A stretch of DNA of 64,000 nucleotides from Lachnospiraceae bacterium (GTDB lineage Bacteria; Bacillota; Clostridia; Lachnospirales; Lachnospiraceae). Positions 44,981-54,411 of this stretch are shown here, one piece after another. The stretch's first letter is position 1; every line of letters begins with the position of its first letter. Where the stretch lies: assembly GCA_017553505.1 (NCBI GenBank), contig JAFZLD010000006.1:1-64000 (forward strand), given 5' to 3'. The notes below the pieces were generated by a model. That model made no database searches, had not been told where the DNA came from, and worked only from the letters and a program-made list of their open reading frames with translations. The translations under genes and the position numbers were made by a program.

Positions 44981-47797
44981 TTATTCCACCGACTTAAGCG
45001 ACTCTGCCATCTTAATCCGCTCAAGCTTAAAGTACAGCACAAAGTCCACAACGAATGCAAAAAGAAACGTAAGCACCACACCGTACACATAGCTCATCGG
45101 CAGTATCTTCGTGTCGAATGTAACCGCTTCGACATTGACATTGTACATAACATAGCGGTGCAGTCCGTAACCCATAAACAGCCCCGCGAAGATGCCGAAG
45201 CCCGTAAGCACCAGAATCTCTCTGAACACATACATTGCCGTCTCGCCCGAATAGAATCCGAGCACCTTAAGCGTCGCAATCTCACGCAAACGCTCGGTAA
45301 TATTGATATTCGTAAGATTGTAAATAACGATAAAAGCAAGTGCCGCCGCACAGAATATAACTACCCACACGATATCGTTAAGACTCTCCATCATGTTGTC
45401 GATTCGTGAACTCATCTCGTCGGAAATTGTCACCGCCGAAACGTAATCGAGAGTACCGATTTCCGCACCGAAACTGTACACATCCGCATCGGTCTTCACG
45501 AAAGCGGTATTATAGTCGGGCTCAACGCCTCTCTGCTCCGCGAACGTCTCAGGTGCAATGTACACCCAGTTATACACGTAATTCTTCATGACTCCCGAAA
45601 CCGTCGCCTCAATCTCGTTAAGGTCCGGATCGCGTAAGAGTACCTTATCACCAATTTCCACATCAAGCGCCTTGGCCATCTTCTCGGTAACTATAGCCTC
45701 GCCCTTACCCGGCACGGGAATGGGTCGTTCTTTGGCATCCATGAAATTGATGTAGTCGCCGATAGCTCCGCCGGCACCGCTCTTGTCAAACACCACAAGG
45801 GTCGCAGACTTCACCAAACCGTTCGCATTCACATCAACTGTCTTCGTCTCGGCATACGCGAACTCACCATGTTCTCTGACTTCCTGCTCGAACTCTTCTC
45901 TGTCGTCAAGTGCCACTCCGTCGTCAAAAGAAACCGTAATATCATACTTCTGGATTATCTTAAACTGGCAATCGCACACATCCGCTACAGAATCCTTGAT
46001 ACCAAAGCCGGTAATCAAAAGTCCGTAACAGCCGCCCACACCAAGCACCATCATCCAGAAACGCTTCCTGTATCTGAACACGTTTCGCACCGACACCTTG
46101 CTCGTGAACTTAAGTCGCTTCCAGATAAATCCAATCTTTTCAAGGAATACGCGCTTACCGTTCGTCGGAGCCTTAGGTCTTATCAAATCGGCCGCGTTGC
46201 TCTTAAACTCTTTGTTAAGCGTATAGTAAGTCGCGCCCATGGAGCACAGTACCGACACAGCAACCGAAATCGTCGCAAGCACCGCATCATATACATACAC
46301 GATATCAGGCATGCTATACATGATACCGTACACATTCCAAATAATCTTAGGGAACATCCACGACCCAAGCAGGAATCCGCCCACGCAGCCGATAATAGCC
46401 GCACTTCCCGAGTAAATCAGGTACTTGCCCATAATAGCCGCTTCACTGTATCCAAGCGCCTTCATGGTACCCACCTCGGTACGCTTCTCCTCCACCATTC
46501 GGTTCATGGTAGTCATACACACAAGCGCCGCCACGAGGAAAAAGAACACGGGAAATACATTTCCGATACCCTCTACAATCGCAGAGTCGTTCTCAAAGCA
46601 AGCATAACCAATATTGGCAGTTCTTGTAAGCACGTAAGTGTCGGGCTCATCAAGGTCAGCAAGCTTCTCCTCCGCGTCCTTAAGCTCTTCCTCATGTTCA
46701 GCCACTTCTTTTTTGGCATCGTCTATCTTAACCTGCGCTTCGGCTATGTCGGACTTGGCGTCTTCGATTTCTTTTTCCTTATCCTTAAGCTCAGCTTCGG
46801 CATCGTCGAGTTCCTTAACGGAAGCCTCATACATTGCGGGTGGCATGAATGCCTTCATTGCCTCAAGCTCGTCACGGGAATCTTCAAGCTTGGAATATCC
46901 GTCGGAAATCTTGCTTTCGCCCTCAAGAATGTCATGCTCGGCGTCCGCAATCTTCTGCTCGTTCTCGGCTATCTCGTCCTTGGCGTCATTAAGCTTGACC
47001 TTCGCGTCGTCGATTTCTTCCTGCGCATCGGTTTTAAGCTCTGTATATTTCAAAAAGGCGCGTTCCTCAAGAAACGCCTTAAACTCGCCCTCTTCAACAT
47101 CAATACCGTCTTTGTACGCGTCGGTGTAAATGGTCTCATCGCTCATGTCCGTAATCGCGTACACTTCGGTATAATAATCACAATCAAAAGTCTCAGGAAG
47201 CACATACATAAAGCCCGAAATTCTTCCGCTTCCGAGCGTCGTGCTGCCACGCTCAAAGTTCACGTAAAGAGAAGACCTGCATATGCCGACTATCTCATAT
47301 TCCGTATCTTTAAGCATGTCGAGCGTATCCTCGGAATTAGAGTCGGTAATCTTAATCTTCTCACCGATCTGACTCTCCTCATACCAACGCGAATCCGCCA
47401 AGCACTCATTGCTCTTCTCGGGCATACGACCGCTTAACAGCTCAACCTTATTGATGCGGTCGGACAAAGAATGCATCTTGGCAACCACAATCGACGCATC
47501 TTCTCTCTCTACCAGCACATCAAGGCTGTAAGCGCCTTCCACGTCCCGCACATAGGACAGTTCTTTAAAGGCCTCCACATCCTCGTCGTAAAGGCCGAGC
47601 GTCGAAATCAACCTGAAATCATGCAAACCGTTGTCCCTAAAATACGCATCGCCGGTTCTGACCATCGCTTCCTTGGTGACCTTTAAGCCCGCAAAAAGAC
47701 CGACACCGAGCGCCACAATCGCAAGGATTGCCAGAAATCGTCCGATGCTTTGCCAAATTTCCCTCATTAAGTTTTTAATCAGGGCAGTTCTCTTCAT
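44981..47797 (-). CDS. ABC transporter permease, FtsX type, with large coiled-coil insertion
   Basis: 938 residues. An N-terminal membrane segment (GRFLAILAIVALGVGLFAGL) precedes an external domain with a long acidic coiled coil (about residues 255-375, many E/K/D/A heptads). Three membrane segments then carry a first FtsX core (MTTMNRMVEEKRTEVGTMKALG), and a second external domain and FtsX core (ITERLREIATLKVLGF) end the protein. This is the large two-FtsX permease type of Gram-positive bacteria. It starts immediately after the ATPase gene with no gap. The cargo is unknown; related systems export peptides or confer resistance to them. Confidence 0.9.
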   Translation of the reverse strand: MKRTALIKNLMREIWQSIGRFLAILAIVALGVGLFAGLKVTKEAMVRTGDAYFRDNGLHDFRLISTLGLYDEDVEAFKELSYVRDVEGAYSLDVLVEREDASIVVAKMHSLSDRINKVELLSGRMPEKSNECLADSRWYEESQIGEKIKITDSNSEDTLDMLKDTEYEIVGICRSSLYVNFERGSTTLGSGRISGFMYVLPETFDCDYYTEVYAITDMSDETIYTDAYKDGIDVEEGEFKAFLEERAFLKYTELKTDAQEEIDDAKVKLNDAKDEIAENEQKIADAEHDILEGESKISDGYSKLEDSRDELEAMKAFMPPAMYEASVKELDDAEAELKDKEKEIEDAKSDIAEAQVKIDDAKKEVAEHEEELKDAEEKLADLDEPDTYVLTRTANIGYACFENDSAIVEGIGNVFPVFFFLVAALVCMTTMNRMVEEKRTEVGTMKALGYSEAAIMGKYLIYSGSAAIIGCVGGFLLGSWMFPKIIWNVYGIMYSMPDIVYVYDAVLATISVAVSVLCSMGATYYTLNKEFKSNAADLIRPKAPTNGKRVFLEKIGFIWKRLKFTSKVSVRNVFRYRKRFWMMVLGVGGCYGLLITGFGIKDSVADVCDCQFKIIQKYDITVSFDDGVALDDREEFEQEVREHGEFAYAETKTVDVNANGLVKSATLVVFDKSGAGGAIGDYINFMDAKERPIPVPGKGEAIVTEKMAKALDVEIGDKVLLRDPDLNEIEATVSGVMKNYVYNWVYIAPETFAEQRGVEPDYNTAFVKTDADVYSFGAEIGTLDYVSAVTISDEMSSRIDNMMESLNDIVWVVIFCAAALAFIVIYNLTNINITERLREIATLKVLGFYSGETAMYVFREILVLTGFGIFAGLFMGYGLHRYVMYNVNVEAVTFDTKILPMSYVYGVVLTFLFAFVVDFVLYFKLERIKMAESLKSVE

Positions 47798-48502
47798 CTA
47801 CCAGGAAATCTCCTCAACAGGAAGCTTATTGTCATTCATTCTTACAGATTCAATCTTACCGCTCTTAACAGAAATAACGCGGTCAGCCATCTGCGTAATC
47901 GCCTGATTGTGGGTAATTACGATAACAGTCTTGCCGGTGTTAACGCACGTATCCTCAAGAAGCTTAAGAATCGCCTTACCGGTGTTGTAATCAAGTGCAC
48001 CCGTAGGCTCGTCGCACAGCAATATCTTCGGATTTTTGGCAAGCGCTCTCGCAATCGCCACTCTCTGCTGCTCACCGCCCGACAACTGCGCCGGGAAGTT
48101 ATTCATGCGCTCCGCAAGGCCCACTTCTCTTAACACTTCCGCCGCGTCCAAAGGCTCCTTACATATCTGAGCCGCAAGTTCCACATTCTCAAGAGCCGTC
48201 AGATTCTGCACCAGATTATAGAACTGGAACACAAATCCCACGTCGTGACGCCTATATGTAGTAAGTCTCTTCTTGGAAAAAGAAGACACCTCTTCTCCGT
48301 CCAACATAACCGTTCCGGAAGTCAGTGTATCCATTCCTCCGAGAATATTAAGAATCGTGGTCTTGCCGGCGCCCGAAGCACCTACTACCACCACGAATTC
48401 TCCTTCCTTAACCTCGAAGTCGACACCGCCCAAAGCGACTGTATCTACCTCTCCGGTATGATATATTTTCTTAACGTCTTTAAAAGAAATAAAGGGCTCC
48501 AT
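47798..48502 (-). CDS. ABC transporter ATP-binding protein, MacB/LolD type
   Basis: 234 residues. Walker [11 protein letters not shown]-loop FVFQFYNL, signature [16 protein letters not shown] and Walker [14 protein letters not shown]. It energises the FtsX-type permease encoded without spacing downstream. The ATG has GAGGTG upstream. Only 83 bases separate it from the radical SAM gene read in the same direction, so it could export or protect against the product of that enzyme. Confidence 0.92.
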
Positions 48503-48585
48503 GTTTCACCTCATTTTGCTTGTGCGCAATACAAGGTTAGTGTAACATGAAACCCTTAAAAAATAGTATAAAATTATTGTGAAAT

Positions 48586-49875
48586 CTATGAAATCAGGTT
48601 TTTAAGCACTCTGTCGAATACATCCTTTTGCATATCGCACATTTTTTCCGGTGATTCGTAGTAGTCGCCGGTTTCCATCTTGTTATTATTGATGCATCTA
48701 TGACAATATGTATTCAGATAACAGTCTTTGCAATTGCCCTCGTCGACAGCTTTGTTGTGATTGTAGAGTTCATCAGACTTTGAAATGACTTTTTCTTTTA
48801 ACACTTCCACCGGTTCATAAACGTTACCGAATTTTAGCTCTTCCACGCCCAGATTTCCCTGGCAGGCGTATATATCGCCGGTAGCCGAAACCGCGGTCTT
48901 ACCGAATCCCGCACCGCAGAAATGATAATAAGGACGGCCGCTTGAAAGTCTCTCCATTATTGAAGTTACAAACGGCGAAGTATTATAAAGATTCTCATCC
49001 TCCTTCAGTTCATCAAGAGATTCCCCGAAATTGCTGAAATCTGTAATTTGGAACCTGGGATTACAACTTGTTACCGAATTAAAAACCATGTATACATCGC
49101 CAAAATCTCTTCTGATATCTTTGATGAGTCTTGCAGGTGAGTATCCTTTGACCCTGTGCTCTTCGGTATATGTTATTTCTACCGCAAAGGGTTCTTCCGT
49201 TCTTTCTCTTAAGTATCTGAAATTCTTAAGAACCAAATCATAGGAAGGAGCTCCTCCCGTAAGCGGCCTTAACATGTCTTGCATAGGCTGCATATCCACG
49301 CTGAAAGTCACCCTAAGCCCATAATCCTTAATCAATTCCACCAATTCGTCTCCCGCATAAGTACCGTTGGACACCATTCCGACGTATGTATTCTTATGGT
49401 TTTCTTTAACGTATTGGCATGCCACCTTAACTACATCAAGATTCATCGTCGGCTCTCCGCCAAAGAAGTTAATGAAGTCAATCTGCGGATATATGGCATA
49501 CATCTTATCAAGCGTCTCAATCACGGTTTCCCTGGTCATAAGCTCGCGCTTCATATTGTAACAACCGCCCTGCCCATAACAATACAAGCATCTCATGTTG
49601 CAGTCATTGCTCACATGAACTACCAGCTCAGGCAAATGATTTCTGTCTCTTTCCGGCAGACTGTTATCAATGCCGTCGCCCAGCATTTTTTTGTAAGCAA
49701 GATACGTCTCTTCGCCCAAAACATACCCTTCTTTTTCCAGTTCCGCGCAGGATTTCCCGGCAACTATCATGTTTAAGACGTTTATCTCATTTTCACTTCC
49801 CTTAATGATAGTACTCGTTTCCGGAAAATAAATCGCATATCCCGCGTCCCCGGCCTTTACACTGTGAAATCGCAT
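48586..49875 (-). CDS. Radical SAM-SPASM peptide maturase
   Basis: 429 residues from ATG 49875 (GGGAGG nine bases upstream; the frame extends 14 codons further without signal). Residues 1-80 look like a small winged peptide-recognition domain (YAIYFPETSTIIKG). The radical-SAM cluster motif is CNMRCLYC (92-99), followed by FFGGEPT. The C-terminal SPASM region holds seven Cys at about 320, 338, 382, 385, 391, 394 and 413 for one or two auxiliary clusters. Such enzymes make thioether, ether or carbon-carbon crosslinks in ribosomal peptides. It is the third gene after two HTH-TPR regulators, so probably under quorum-type control. Confidence 0.9.
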   Translation of the reverse strand: MRFHSVKAGDAGYAIYFPETSTIIKGSENEINVLNMIVAGKSCAELEKEGYVLGEETYLAYKKMLGDGIDNSLPERDRNHLPELVVHVSNDCNMRCLYCYGQGGCYNMKRELMTRETVIETLDKMYAIYPQIDFINFFGGEPTMNLDVVKVACQYVKENHKNTYVGMVSNGTYAGDELVELIKDYGLRVTFSVDMQPMQDMLRPLTGGAPSYDLVLKNFRYLRERTEEPFAVEITYTEEHRVKGYSPARLIKDIRRDFGDVYMVFNSVTSCNPRFQITDFSNFGESLDELKEDENLYNTSPFVTSIMERLSSGRPYYHFCGAGFGKTAVSATGDIYACQGNLGVEELKFGNVYEPVEVLKEKVISKSDELYNHNKAVDEGNCKDCYLNTYCHRCINNNKMETGDYYESPEKMCDMQKDVFDRVLKNLIS

Positions 49876-49891
49876 TTTCCATAACCTCCCG

Positions 49892-50761
49892 TCAACATTT
49901 AAACATTGAAACCGCAACTTTCTTCTCTTCTTTGCGGTTGTTTATCAATTCTTCAAGCACAAAAGCATAATTTCTGTATACATTCCCCATATCGGTTTTG
50001 CCTTCCAGTTCGTATGCTTTGGCTTCTATATCAAAAATCGCTTTCTTGAAATATGGCTTTCTTTTTCGCTCAATCTCCTTAAGTGCGCGGGCACATATCG
50101 AAAGACTTTTGTCCGGATAGCCGCTGTCTGCGGATATATCTGCATATTCTGCCAGCAAAAGAATATACAACTCTCCGTATACGCCGTCTAAGCAGCTGCT
50201 GCCTTCCATATATTCTTCCAGCTTTTTGATAAGCTTTTCGGCGTAGTCATATTCTCCCGTTTTATGAAGACACTTCGCCACAAGAATGAGCCTGTGAATT
50301 TCAAACGGCTCCATTATCGCATAATCGATTTCCGGCCAATTTCCCAAGGATTTTTTCTCCGTGAGTGCAGCATCAAGAAGCTCTATACATCCGACAAAGT
50401 CCTGCTTGTCAAAACTTGTAACGGCTTTGACATACTTAACAAACGCGTCCTCGCATTCTGTAGCCGCATATTCTGCCAAAATATCGTCATTTTGGCTTTT
50501 GGGATTACGTATTATATTCCTCACAGCAAGATATCTGAGTCTGTATGCTTCATCTCCCGATGCCTCGCATCCCGACAATCCTTTGGGGGCACCCAGACGT
50601 TTGATTATCTTATCAAAAGTCGTTTTGGCAGGAGTTTCGAGCCCGTTTTCGATTCTTGAAAGCGTACTTACTGAACATATTCCGAAAGCAATGTCTTCCT
50701 GCTTCATGTTGCGCATCTTCCGGGTTCTTTTTATCATTTCGCCAATGCTATATTCGCTCAA
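49892..50761 (-). CDS. HTH-TPR regulator B (PlcR/Rgg-like)
   Basis: 289 residues. An N-terminal XRE helix-turn-helix (IGEMIKRTRKMRNMKQEDIA, GICSVSTLSRIENG) is followed by about 220 residues of helical TPR-like repeats. This is the plan of RRNPP regulators, which bind short imported peptides. I place the start at TTG 50761, which overlaps the stop of regulator A as TTGA with AAGGAG ten bases upstream and gives the same N-terminus as its paralogues; the GTG at 50773 sits one base from the ribosome binding site. It precedes the radical SAM gene by 16 bases, in one operon. Confidence 0.82.
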   Translation of the reverse strand: MSEYSIGEMIKRTRKMRNMKQEDIAFGICSVSTLSRIENGLETPAKTTFDKIIKRLGAPKGLSGCEASGDEAYRLRYLAVRNIIRNPKSQNDDILAEYAATECEDAFVKYVKAVTSFDKQDFVGCIELLDAALTEKKSLGNWPEIDYAIMEPFEIHRLILVAKCLHKTGEYDYAEKLIKKLEEYMEGSSCLDGVYGELYILLLAEYADISADSGYPDKSLSICARALKEIERKRKPYFKKAIFDIEAKAYELEGKTDMGNVYRNYAFVLEELINNRKEEKKVAVSMFKC

Positions 50762-51666
50762 AGGTGCCCACACTCCTTCCTGATATAATCATCGAATCTT
50801 TCGGCGGTCTCTATACCTTTATCCATCTTAATTACTTCCCTGGTCTGCTTTATCATCCGCTTTACACAATCGGGAGATTTCTTAAGATTAATAGCTATTA
50901 TGGTTCGATTAATCATTACTTCCGCGAGATTGGCCATTCCTTTGTTTTTTGAAAACACCTCGATAAGCTCATCGCTGTAGGTATCAGCTTCCACAAATCG
51001 CCCGAGTGAAACCAGTATCTCTACTATTCCCAAAGTCACTGTCTCGTAGCCCTCGCGTATAAGTTCGTAATCCATATACTTTCTTGCAAGATATTGTCTT
51101 ACTTTTGAAAGAACCTCAAGCGCGCGTTCTTTGTCTCCGATTAACACCAGCGTTTTTCCGTAATCAATAAGGATGTTCCACTCGGTCTTTGAATAAAGAC
51201 TCCTTTCCGCCACCTCAGATGACAAATCGGGGTGGGTAATTCTTAGTAATTCAAGCGCTTCTGCCGCAATGGTTTCAAATGGTTTCTTTTGCTCCAAAAT
51301 ATCATTTCGCAGGCTATACGCTCCCACAGTCTGACGTTCTGCAGCGTTATCTTCATTCATTAAGTCATATGCCTTTTTAAGGGTTTCGCCTGCCGATTTG
51401 GGCTCAGTCTTAAAAGAATTATTCAATTCTTCCAAAACGTTGTTAAGTTCAATCTCCCGCCCGGAAGAAAGAATAAAATACTGTTCGGTATCTATCCCCA
51501 GTCGTTCCATAAGGTATCGAAGTTTGAAACTGGTCGGAAACATCAGTCCGTTTTCTATCTTTGAAAGCGTGCTGACCGTACAAATTCCGCCACACAAATC
51601 TGCCTGTCTGATGCCAAGTTTTTCTCTTTTTTTCTTTATTATTTCACCGATTTTAACTTCCCACAC
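50758..51666 (-). CDS. HTH-TPR regulator A (PlcR/Rgg-like)
   Basis: 302 residues. Start taken at GTG 51666 with GGAG six bases upstream, which aligns WEVKIGEIIKKKREKLG with the N-termini of regulators B, C and D; a GTG at 51696 would add ten unrelated residues. The HTH reads ICTVSTLSKIENG and is followed by TPR-like helices (ALEVLSKVRQYLARKYMDYELI). It is the first gene of the operon A-B-radical SAM and is divergent from regulators C-D across a 167-base gap. Confidence 0.82.
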   Translation of the reverse strand: MWEVKIGEIIKKKREKLGIRQADLCGGICTVSTLSKIENGLMFPTSFKLRYLMERLGIDTEQYFILSSGREIELNNVLEELNNSFKTEPKSAGETLKKAYDLMNEDNAAERQTVGAYSLRNDILEQKKPFETIAAEALELLRITHPDLSSEVAERSLYSKTEWNILIDYGKTLVLIGDKERALEVLSKVRQYLARKYMDYELIREGYETVTLGIVEILVSLGRFVEADTYSDELIEVFSKNKGMANLAEVMINRTIIAINLKKSPDCVKRMIKQTREVIKMDKGIETAERFDDYIRKECGHL

Positions 51667-51833
51667 ATTGCGCTCCAAGTTCTTAATATGAGTCACAATC
51701 CTATACTACACAATTGATTTAATGTGTGCTATATAAGATTAATAAAACGATTTTTGACAATTATTATAACCTTGACACGTGTCTTTCGCCCGATGTACCA
51801 TGATTATGTGGAATGAATGTGAGGTGTGCTAAC
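51667..51833. promoter_or_regulatory. Divergent regulatory gap between the two regulator operons
   Basis: Contains on the plus strand TTGACA (starting about 51774) followed after 18 bases by TACCAT, a plausible promoter for regulator C. On the minus strand are TATAAT and TTGTCA elements. An imperfect inverted repeat CACAATTGATTTAATGTGTG (about 51708-51728) is a candidate operator for one of the HTH-TPR proteins. No small ORF is evident here. Confidence 0.45.
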
Positions 51834-52781
51834 ATGAAAGTGATTGATATTGGCGAGCTTATCAAAAGCGAGCGCATTAAGAAAGGGATGACGCAAGCCG
51901 ATCTCTCTTTTGACTTGTGTACAATTGCCACACTGTCTCGCATTGAGAACGGACTGCATATACCTCAGAGCAGAGTGTTATTCGGCCTTTTGGAGCGCCT
52001 CGATCTTACCGATTATAAACTCCTTGGCCCCATGCAGGATGACTCGGATTTTGATGCTCATATTCACTTTTTGGAAGAGAAACTGGAACAATTATGTTCC
52101 GAGAAGAATTGGACGGATTTTCTTGTCTGTCTTAACGAACTCAAAGCTTCAAACATAGAATACAATCCCGCTGACAGACAATTTCTGATAGTTTACGAAA
52201 CAATTTACAATTTTGAAAACGGCCGAAGGAATTTCATTGTCTTAACAGATTTGCTTGCTGCCATCAGACTTACCATTCCGGGTTTTTCTTTGGATTCACC
52301 GATAGAATATAACCTTACGACCAACGAGCAGTACTTGCTTATCTTCATGGTCTTTTGCTGTATTCAGGCTCACAACGACGCCTTAGCTTCTTATCTTATC
52401 GCTGCGCTTAAGGTTTCTTTTGACAATACCATAGCAAGGCACGGGCTATGGACCGAGCCCGTTTTCTATTATTACGAGATACTGATTAACCATTACATAG
52501 ATAACAACGATTACACATCTGCGCTTGAAGCAATTAACAACCACAGACTGTTTTGCAAAAAGCAAGGACGCTTTTCTCAATACACCGCCTATGCCTATGA
52601 GGAAATACTATGCTATATGCGCTTAAATATGGTTGATGATGCAAGGGAGCGGATTCTTACAAATTATTTCCACCTTCGGGGAATCAGAAAGCAAGAGGAA
52701 GCCGAAGCTTTCAGGATGCGCATCAGGGAAGACTATTTAATAGACTTTAGAATCATTGAAAGGAGAACTCCCAATGCCTGA
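51834..52781 (+). CDS. HTH-TPR regulator C (PlcR/Rgg-like)
   Basis: 315 residues from ATG 51834, which has GAGGTG seven bases upstream; the earlier ATG at 51813 has none. The HTH (IGELIKSERIKKGMTQADLS, LCTIATLSRIENG) is followed by TPR-like helices to the C-terminus (ALEAINNHRLFCKKQGRFSQ). It is co-directional and overlapping with regulator D. Sequence divergence from A and B in the C-terminal half suggests a different peptide ligand. Confidence 0.85.
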   Translation: MKVIDIGELIKSERIKKGMTQADLSFDLCTIATLSRIENGLHIPQSRVLFGLLERLDLTDYKLLGPMQDDSDFDAHIHFLEEKLEQLCSEKNWTDFLVCLNELKASNIEYNPADRQFLIVYETIYNFENGRRNFIVLTDLLAAIRLTIPGFSLDSPIEYNLTTNEQYLLIFMVFCCIQAHNDALASYLIAALKVSFDNTIARHGLWTEPVFYYYEILINHYIDNNDYTSALEAINNHRLFCKKQGRFSQYTAYAYEEILCYMRLNMVDDARERILTNYFHLRGIRKQEEAEAFRMRIREDYLIDFRIIERRTPNA

Positions 52782-53694
52782 CCTTTCATATCTTGGGAAG
52801 ATGATTCATGATGCAAGAGAGCGGGCTAAAATCTCTTCTTCAGAATTATGCTACGGTCTATGTTCAATCTCTATGTTAAGCCGTATAGAAAGCGGCAAAC
52901 GCACTCCGGATTTCCTTTTGTTTTCCGCTTTATTTCAACGGGCCGGCGGCTCTACTTCCGACCTGGTATATCTGTGCTCCAAAAGAGAAGTTAAGCTCTT
53001 CTCCATTATTCATGACTCATATCTATTTGACACTTACAGCATAGATAAAAAGAAAAAAATACTGGAAGAATATAAACAGACAGCCCTTTTGTCCAACAAT
53101 CTTGAAGCTCAATACTATTATTACTTTTCGGCACTGTGCGAAAAGAACGCCGACAAAAGATATGAGCTCATTCTCAAGGCGTTAAACTGTACTCTTCCGA
53201 ACATAGACATATATAATGACAGTTTTTACTGTCTGTCACATATGGAGCGCATCATCATTACCCATGCTCTGCATTATTGTATATGGCACCATAAAACGCG
53301 GCTTGCAGCCAAGGTATATGAGACCCTTGCTTATACGCAGGAAAAAATGGGCGCTGATATAATGTCCGTTCGTAATTCTTTTTCCGACAGATATGGTGTG
53401 CTGATTTGCAATCTTGTGGAAGGCGATATTGAAGAAGTTCTGCATCTGGCCAAGAAGTTTTTCAAGAAATACAGTCCATATGTATACCCTGATATGGAAA
53501 TAACTGTTGCCAAGTATAATTATCAGCTTGGTTATGCCACACTGTACATGGACAAGTCCGCTTCCGGAATTGACGTAGTAACAGCATATTATATGCACAG
53601 ACTTCAAAATGATTATAAAAAGGCTGAGGCTATCCGCTTAGATGCTCTGAATGATTTGGGATACGAATTTAATATAGAATTTTTCGAATTATAA
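52774..53694 (+). CDS. HTH-TPR regulator D (PlcR/Rgg-like)
   Basis: 306 residues from ATG 52774 (AAAGGAG eight bases upstream), overlapping the end of regulator C by eight bases. The HTH is LGKMIHDARERAKISSSELC plus LCSISMLSRIESG. The helical C-terminal part has repeated aromatic-rich units (LEAQYYYYFSALCEK, KVYETLAYTQEKMG). It lies 100 bases before a short gene encoding a signal-peptide-bearing peptide, the same order as plcR-papR in Bacillus. Confidence 0.85.
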   Translation: MPDLSYLGKMIHDARERAKISSSELCYGLCSISMLSRIESGKRTPDFLLFSALFQRAGGSTSDLVYLCSKREVKLFSIIHDSYLFDTYSIDKKKKILEEYKQTALLSNNLEAQYYYYFSALCEKNADKRYELILKALNCTLPNIDIYNDSFYCLSHMERIIITHALHYCIWHHKTRLAAKVYETLAYTQEKMGADIMSVRNSFSDRYGVLICNLVEGDIEEVLHLAKKFFKKYSPYVYPDMEITVAKYNYQLGYATLYMDKSASGIDVVTAYYMHRLQNDYKKAEAIRLDALNDLGYEFNIEFFEL

Positions 53695-53764
53695 AATTCG
53701 TCAAATGATATTTTCTTTGGCTTATATTTCACTCTTAAACAGTGGGATATATCATGGAATTACT

Positions 53765-53770
53765 TATAAT
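53765..53770 (+). promoter_or_regulatory. -10 box of the 61-residue peptide gene
   Basis: A perfect TATAAT stands 24 bases before the ATG without a good -35. Instead TGGGATAT lies 22 bases upstream. The minus-strand peptide gene at 54067 has TGGGGTAT 23 bases before a TATAAT, so both may depend on the same activator. Confidence 0.4.
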
Positions 53771-53794
53771 TTTCAGATAGAAAGGAAGATAAAA

Positions 53795-53980
53795 ATGAAA
53801 AATGTATTGGTCAAAACAGCTCTGTTAACCGTAATCACTCTTATTACCGCCGGCGCGTATCGCGAAACTGCATTACTTAATGCAAACAATTCCAATGTGC
53901 TCACTACCGGTTTTCCCGATAGTTGCCCCATTGAAATCAACATTATTATCGATGACGAAACAGACCAATATGCCGAATAA
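53795..53980 (+). CDS. Secreted peptide, candidate signalling pheromone precursor
   Basis: 61 residues, with AAAGGAAG before the ATG. MKNVLVK and a hydrophobic run (TALLTVITLITAGA) form a probable Sec signal peptide, leaving an exported part of about 40 residues that ends in an acidic tail after CPIEINIIIDD. Position after an RRNPP-type regulator, small size and signal peptide match PapR-like pheromone precursors, from which a C-terminal fragment is cut and re-imported. The single Cys could also be a modification site. Which regulator it serves, and whether the radical SAM enzyme acts on it, cannot be told from sequence. Confidence 0.7.
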   Translation: MKNVLVKTALLTVITLITAGAYRETALLNANNSNVLTTGFPDSCPIEINIIIDDETDQYAE

Positions 53981-53989
53981 GTGAGCATT

Positions 53990-54029
53990 AAAAAACCTCT
54001 CATTACATACACGTATTGAGAGGTTTTTT
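53990..54029. terminator. Bidirectional terminator between two convergent peptide genes
   Basis: AAAAAACCTCTCA (53990-54002) is exactly complementary to TGAGAGGTTTTTT (54017-54029), giving A- and T-runs on both sides. Confidence 0.9.
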
Positions 54030-54066
54030 AGTCCGATAATTATCCTTTTTTCGCGAACTTACCGAA

Positions 54067-54162
54067 TTAGTAAGCAACGAGACCTGTAGGAATAGGTCTG
54101 GGGAAAGGAATCGGCTTGGGCACTACGATGATAGGTCCGATATCGATGATAATCTTCTCCAT
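54067..54162 (-). CDS. 31-residue Pro-rich leaderless peptide, candidate RiPP precursor
   Basis: Starts at ATG 54162 with a strong AGAAGGAGG eleven bases upstream. The sequence begins MEKIIIDIGP, continues with IIVVPK and ends PIPFPRPIPTGLVAY, without signal peptide or Cys. A hydrophobic/acidic N-terminal half resembling a recognition leader and a Pro/Ile/Phe/Arg core-like half are typical of very small ribosomal peptide precursors. Its IIID motif recurs in the 61-residue peptide (NIIIDD). It has its own promoter region with TATAAT elements around 54280-54290 and a small GTCGGC/GCCGGAC hairpin in the leader. It lies 4.4 kb from the radical SAM gene, so pairing with that enzyme is inference. 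Confidence 0.65.
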   Translation of the reverse strand: MEKIIIDIGPIIVVPKPIPFPRPIPTGLVAY

Positions 54163-54370
54163 AAGTTCAGGTTCCTCCTTCTTTAAATTTATATATAAGT
54201 CCGGCATCGCCGACCTATTTTTAGTATGCAGAAAACGAATCAGACAGTTTTCCTTATACAGATTAGTCTCAATTTGTATAATAATTATATTTCCAATAGC
54301 GCAAATACCCCATAGCGTTTCGGGAAAAAATAAATTTCCTGAAACCGCAAGTTTTGCAGACAAAAGAAAA

Positions 54371-54393
54371 ACCCGCTCCGAATCGGAACGGGT
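54371..54393 (-). terminator. Terminator of the SpoU methylase gene
   Basis: ACCCGTTCCG / CGGAGCGGGT stem followed by TTTTTCTTTTG on the minus strand. Confidence 0.85.
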
Positions 54394-54411
54394 CTTTAAG
54401 CTTATATTGAA

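Follow-up and report, generated by a model that had tools for sequence, protein, structure and literature searches.

A candidate quorum-sensing cassette with four PlcR/ComR-type regulators and a radical SAM peptide maturase in a Lachnospiraceae bacterium

Why would a bacterium gather four paralogous regulators, one peptide-modifying enzyme and two dissimilar small peptide genes at a single place? This arrangement was seen in a rumen-type Lachnospiraceae bacterium, in a window of 64,000 nucleotides (the whole stretch of DNA analysed here), as an inserted cassette at 48566–54411 between a trmH-like gene and a LolD-type ABC (ATP-binding cassette) transporter gene. On the minus strand the order is regulator B (50758–51666, GTG start), regulator A (49892–50761, TTG start, overlapping B through TTGA) and the gene of a 429-residue radical SAM (S-adenosylmethionine) enzyme with possible SPASM-type features (48586–49875, ATG start after GGAGG). 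The plus strand carries regulator C (51834–52781), regulator D (52774–53694, with an 8-base overlap with C), both with ATG starts, and then pep1 (53795–53980), an open reading frame (ORF) of 61 residues bearing a signal peptide. Convergent with pep1 lies pep2 (54067–54162, minus strand), a 31-residue Pro-rich, Cys-free ORF with a ribosome site and an ATG. Start codons were chosen from ribosome sites and from alignment with a second genome (G002, below). A sequence-only reading had described these genes with their strands and overlaps, and all the ORFs are indeed present. We lean towards an RRNPP-type (PlcR/ComR-like) quorum-sensing cassette controlling a radical-SAM-modified peptide, with pep1 as the signal and pep2 as the substrate. 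It is likely that a modified peptide is under quorum control here, and it would probably be made only when enough kin cells are present.

Are the four regulators peptide sensors? Their joint profile (A1) matches PlcR (E 1.9e-7) and ComR, and PlcR stands at the top of the fold matches of regulator C; A–D are thus PlcR/ComR-type (RRNPP) regulators, in agreement with the earlier reading. With the chosen starts they are 289–315 residues long, inside the range of 250–500 used to define RRNPP receptors (PMC10075063), they have a C-terminal superhelix of the TPR type, and a small secreted-type propeptide is adjacent, pep1 beginning 101 nt after D. The helix-turn-helix (HTH) domain HTH_3 of Pfam is above cut-off in A (4.5e-9), B (5.5e-6) and C, and weak in D (E 0.0032, below cut-off); at E up to 0.5 it is found in all eight members of profile A1. 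The NCBIfam matches of A–D (E up to 1) do not include TIGR01716, whose presence in the release used was left unchecked and which a section of PMC10518010 presents as the dedicated Rgg/RopB model.

What is the enzyme? Pfam Radical_SAM matches it at 2.9e-19 (70.3 bits against a cut-off of 29.5) and the CxxxCxxC core is present; SPASM scores 17.7 bits, under its cut-off of 21.5, and seven Cys of the C-terminal part are invariant among four maturase homologues. A profile of four maturase sequences matches 5wgg (4e-51) and 8vpo (3.9e-22), which we take to be CteB and PapB (the match table reads radical SAM protein), while the PapB-family ranthipeptide model NF047865 gives 146.5 bits, below its cut-off of 340. 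By homology the enzyme belongs with the radical SAM peptide maturases, CteB and PapB being its closest matches; the maturase of RiPP (ribosomally synthesised and post-translationally modified peptide) type proposed from the sequence is supported. A structure model of the enzyme (mean pLDDT, the predicted local confidence, 51) places strands at 4–7, 13–17 and 22–26 of its N-terminus ahead of three helices. A RiPP recognition element consists of three strands and three helices, and the N-terminus may be such an element. Maturases of this kind (E up to 1e-38) occur in 5 of 397 sampled Lachnospiraceae genomes, the window's own included, and the four others are 31–33% identical to the window's. All four have short precursor-like ORFs nearby, within about 250 nt at loci L087, L088 and L090 and about 1.5 kb upstream at L089; these contain Cys at L087 and L089 and are Cys-free at L090 and at L088, where there is a GG motif. 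At L090 (6854–7717) the maturase gene is preceded by three short ORFs without Cys, of which two (MEKLEKFEIKEVSTL...) are close paralogs; these three may encode precursors of a radical SAM peptide that has no thioether.

Where does the cassette begin and end? The trmH-like and LolD-type genes are neighbours in sister genomes; therefore the inserted stretch is about 48566–54411, and the ABC transporter lies outside it. At the empty site of sister genome G013, the trmH-side and ABC-side matches are only 22 bp apart. G011, G016, G003, G012 and G015 likewise have the two genes side by side; in G007 they are on different contigs, and in the remaining nine genomes of the genus without the cassette a LolD match at 1e-70 was not reached. 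The transporter gene (47798–48502) does follow the maturase on the same strand, as noted from the sequence; its proposed role as exporter of the product is not supported, since the empty sites rule it out as a cassette member and mark it as flanking DNA. Beyond it comes a gene for an FtsX-type permease (44981–47797, 938 residues), a long stretch of which is weakly matched by SMC-like coiled-coil models; in G013 too this gene is placed after LolD.

How widespread is the cassette? Among 18 genomes of the genus, a close maturase was found in two, the window's own (G000) and G002, so that 1 of the 17 other genomes has the cassette; G006 and G014 gave distant maturase matches only. G002 is a sheep-rumen Lachnospiraceae metagenome-assembled genome, and its locus (L041, on JAFYDI010000013.1) has the same gene order plus a 572-residue MsbA-like ABC exporter between C and B (L041 2254–3972), a gene that the window's cassette lacks. 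This second genome repeats the gene order and the beginning of pep1 between the same flanks, so the arrangement is not due to chance. Window and G002 proteins are 67.8% (maturase), 54.3% (A), 63.5% (B), 62.8% (C) and 62.6% (D) identical, and the flanking proteins 99.1% (LolD) and 99.2% (TrmH). All five large genes have intact reading frames in the window's genome and in G002, and the cassette proteins are under constraint, because the proportion of non-synonymous differences (pN 0.19–0.27) is below that of synonymous ones (pS 0.72–0.83). One scan of viral contigs gave no relative of the cassette regulators, and no RNA family matched at gathering score.

What do these two alleles say about the history of the cassette? 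Synonymous differences reach saturation in the cassette (pS 0.72–0.83) and are lower in the flanking LolD (0.44) and TrmH (0.55) genes, which suggests alleles older than the divergence of the two genomes, or an exchange of alleles. It is conceivable, and we hold it tentatively, that long-diverged alleles are swapped by recombination in the flanks, in the manner of pherotypes, and serve mainly in kin discrimination; this is compatible with quorum control of a modified peptide. The flanking DNA of G013 is nearer to the window's than that of G002 is, although G013 has no cassette, and this too fits such swapping. However, only two alleles are known, and, since synonymous substitution is saturated, they may instead have evolved fast in place.

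Which of the two small ORFs would be the signal, and which the substrate? Between 48500 and 54500 three small ORFs qualify (20–149 residues, a ribosome-site score of at least 4.4, largely clear of the five large genes): pep1, pep2 and a 71-residue ORF antisense to pep1. The signal peptide of pep1 was called by a hydropathy and charge rule of our own, not by SignalP, and its C-terminus, DDETDQYAE, is acidic. An ortholog, MKNALGKLLVMATVSFMTLGVYSEPEYTPDQSYEISIDN, lies at the same place in G002, where the contig end cuts it after 39 codons; over the first 24 residues the two are 37.5% identical, with the start conserved. This ortholog was found by reading the contig end; the search of the genus genomes gave no convincing match of pep1 beyond its own genome (best E 0.40). 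In the 18 genus genomes pep2 was found in the window's own alone, and G002 has, at the end of its trmH contig (L049), an ortholog start, AAAGGAGG followed by ATG ACA GAA CTT, before that contig also ends. Conservation of the two peptides in G002, as far as the contigs allow it to be read, is real but partial. The co-occurrence that the sequence-only reading asked about is seen for the regulators, the maturase and the pep1 start; for pep2 it reaches no further than ribosome site, ATG and three more codons.

The DNA around the peptides offers a hint of how pep2 might be controlled. Between the two genes lies a stretch that matches its own opposite strand (53989–54030), probably a two-way terminator. 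Upstream of pep2, between it and a terminator-like site after the trmH-like gene (54367–54397, minus strand; common to G002 and absent from the G013 empty site), 50 bp are identical in window and G002 (54306–54355, minus strand). Within this block is the palindrome GTTTCRGGAAA-N7-TTTCCYGAAAC (54317–54345), a candidate operator that occurs once in the window, in none of 100 shuffles, and once in the whole 3.13-Mb genome. Elsewhere in the cassette its half-sites give one site with a single mismatch, inside the maturase gene; between B and C no site appears when up to two mismatches are allowed. In both genomes TATAAT/TATGAT stands about 28 bases downstream. The pep2 promoter may be activator-dependent, because the promoter scan lists no minus-strand site near this element.

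How could these parts work together? Sec would carry pep1 out of the cell, where trimming of its acidic C-terminal part would yield a short pheromone. Re-imported by an oligopeptide permease, this pheromone would bind in the TPR groove of one or both of the regulators C and D. The loaded receptor could then bind the palindrome and activate the pep2 promoter, which is poor in its −35 element. The maturase would read a short N-terminal strand of pep2 and modify the Pro-rich remainder; since pep2 has no Cys, this modification cannot be a thioether if pep2 is indeed what the maturase acts on. The modified peptide would leave the cell through a transporter encoded elsewhere in this strain, where G002 has one in the cassette.

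Is pep2 really the substrate? It could instead be a second, leaderless signal or go untranslated, with the maturase acting on a precursor elsewhere or on pep1. The missing Cys would fit this, as would the lack of significant similarity between pep2 and the precursor-like ORFs near related maturases (against the Cys-free ones of L090, at best 186 and 115 of 2000 shuffles score as high); pep1 and pep2 have only the letters IIID in common, which is not significant. Leaderless signals do exist, though sections of PMC13361665 and PMC10518010 describe them as 8–10 residues long. However, the related maturases have precursor-like ORFs close at hand at every locus examined, the cassette holds no small ORF with a sufficient ribosome-site score beyond the three named, and a signal peptide would take pep1 away from a cytosolic maturase, so we regard this alternative as unlikely. 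We consider it very improbable that this insertion is silent or in decay, its regulators left without a working product pathway: its rarity in the genus, the missing exporter and the weak HTH of D would fit, but the five large genes are open and constrained in both genomes and the promoter block is fully conserved.

Of more interest than the cassette itself is the larger family to which its regulators belong. Lachnospiraceae are major gut and rumen bacteria; good accounts of peptide quorum sensing exist for bacilli, streptococci and a few clostridia. Profile A1 reaches 51 of the 397 sampled family genomes at E up to 1e-14, its own included; a class-wide draw gave matches in 4 of 291 genomes, two of them from the family, again with its own. 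Members come as singles of about 300 residues, as overlapping pairs, and as two-unit chains, mostly of about 600–690 residues; two units were found in all 13 of these doubles that were split, and Pfam RNPP_C is above cut-off in one member of the family. The sequence-only reading had called four regulators with two dissimilar peptides an unusually layered circuit. Overlapping pairs turn out to be a habit of the family, with six further besides those of the cassette, while two such pairs at one site were seen, among the loci examined, only in the two cassette copies. Are pairs and doubles related? In a tree, all six second members of the pairs group with 7 of 13 C-terminal halves of doubles (support 100/97), and first members group weakly with N-terminal halves. 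The idea that the cassette pairs themselves are split halves of fused doubles was rejected; the tree leaves A–D outside these groups, with A among the singles.

Do the doubles come with signals of their own? Many are met at the 3' end by a convergent ORF of 40–72 residues that has a ribosome site and the profile of a signal peptide, and that in many cases overlaps the regulator by a few bases. Such an ORF was present at 12 of 16 distinct double loci of a first set (any such ORF in 2 of 73 controls) and, with criteria unchanged, at 13 of 26 loci of a second set of further family loci with long open frames (1 of 13 controls), together 25 of 42 against 3 of 86. The first-set criteria were fixed after some peptides had been seen and are looser than earlier ones, which gave 8 of 36 test loci and none of 20 controls. 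The script counted 13/17 in the first set, from which L117 was dropped as a same-strand match at the same gene as L190, and 13/27 in the second, where L261 repeats L121; L243, L254 and L258 of this set show one regulator unit in the chosen ORF, and L238 is a fusion. Fisher tests, which use raw counts and controls that in part overlap one another, gave 1.8e-9 (12/17) and 0.012 (13/27). A signal-peptide ORF also lies beside four of the six overlapping pairs other than the cassette's, and at 9 of 36 single and pair loci, both cassette loci included. The window's own genome has three doubles, each with such a convergent ORF. On its contig C14 (L201, 7233–13196) two fused doubles, each with a convergent propeptide, lie close together; G013 has orthologs of both, and G002 of one. 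One L201 propeptide repeats GDEDVGYxAE (GDEDVGYSAE, GDEDVGYAAE), and the end of pep1 looks similarly acidic. Part of PMC9765709 reports repeats of such a kind in pheromone precursors. Neither pep2 nor pep1 resembles the 41-residue propeptide of L253 significantly (2983 and 427 of 5000 shuffles reach the score).

Is the link between regulator and maturase a property of the family too? In G289, an ORF of 890 residues joins two regulator HTH units to a complete radical SAM/SPASM maturase (L238 2967–5639, contig C15; also L275 9967–12639), with HTH at residues 10–44 and, below cut-off, 281–332, Radical_SAM at 519–663 and SPASM at 768–831; against the PapB model (cut-off 340) the maturase part reaches 186.8 bits. 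About 5 kb away a double lies beside a radical SAM gene. In the window's own genome, a double on contig C22 (L200, 6326–16133) with a convergent 51-residue peptide is divergent from a cluster of three radical SAM genes, a PqqD-like gene, a 38-residue ORF and two ORFs that look by eye like ABC exporters. Doubles adjoin maturases in G342 and G197 (best model PapB, below cut-off) and in G312 (494.9 bits against the CcpM cut-off of 500). Radical SAM genes lay near 3 of 22 regulator loci against 1 of 31 controls in a first count (p 0.19; the script found 4/22, and L206 was dropped because its motif lies in a radical SAM protein of another type, about 6 kb off), and near 3 of 27 against 0 of 13 in a second. 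The pooled excess, 6/49 against 1/44, is not significant (p 0.07), with the motif rule tightened between counts and L238 counted for its own fusion; the fusion protein is a stronger argument for the link than the count.

We would propose, with some hesitation, that two-unit RRNPP-like receptors (fused or as overlapping pairs) with a Sec-exported propeptide at the 3' end form a large, apparently undescribed quorum-sensing branch in Lachnospiraceae. Two units acting as an obligate heterodimer could read one pheromone and two operator halves, and radical SAM maturases would have been captured repeatedly, once as a single receptor-maturase protein physically joining sensing and modification. The open-licence literature gave no paper combining RRNPP, Lachnospiraceae and quorum sensing, and 'lachnospir' has no occurrence in the main text of PMC10075063, PMC9765709, PMC12700828, PMC10518010 or PMC13361665. 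A receptor filter of 250–500 residues, of the RRNPP_detector type described in part of PMC10075063, would miss fused doubles. If real, the branch would offer testable pheromones for many species and a handle to switch on silent peptide clusters of rumen and gut.

How do the cassette and its family compare with known systems? The maturase shares its radical SAM core, and perhaps a SPASM-type Cys set, with CteB, the SCIFF maturase, and PapB, a ranthipeptide maturase; unlike theirs, its putative substrate has no Cys, so there would be no thioether, and its NCBIfam scores are far under the cut-offs. The gene for PapR lies just downstream of that for PlcR, on the same strand. PlcR-PapR of the Bacillus cereus group resembles the cassette in this position of a small secreted-type peptide gene and in its receptor of HTH and helical repeats, the best sequence and fold match to the regulators; the cassette differs in its four receptors, set in two overlapping divergent pairs, and in its linked maturase. 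Quorum control of RiPP clusters as such is already known: Rgg systems control radical SAM RiPPs in streptococci (PMC13361665, PMC8092268), and part of PMC10075063 reports 196 candidate RiPP clusters under RRNPP control. Like the cassette, streptococcal Rgg systems with their short hydrophobic peptides (SHP) pair a peptide-sensing regulator with a peptide maturase of the radical SAM type. Group III SHP genes, in a passage of PMC13361665, overlap the 3' end of the regulator gene convergently, a geometry that resembles the convergent ORFs beside the doubles. The family described here departs from Rgg/SHP in its longer propeptides (40–72 residues, with a signal-peptide profile), in its paired or fused double receptors, and in belonging to another bacterial family.

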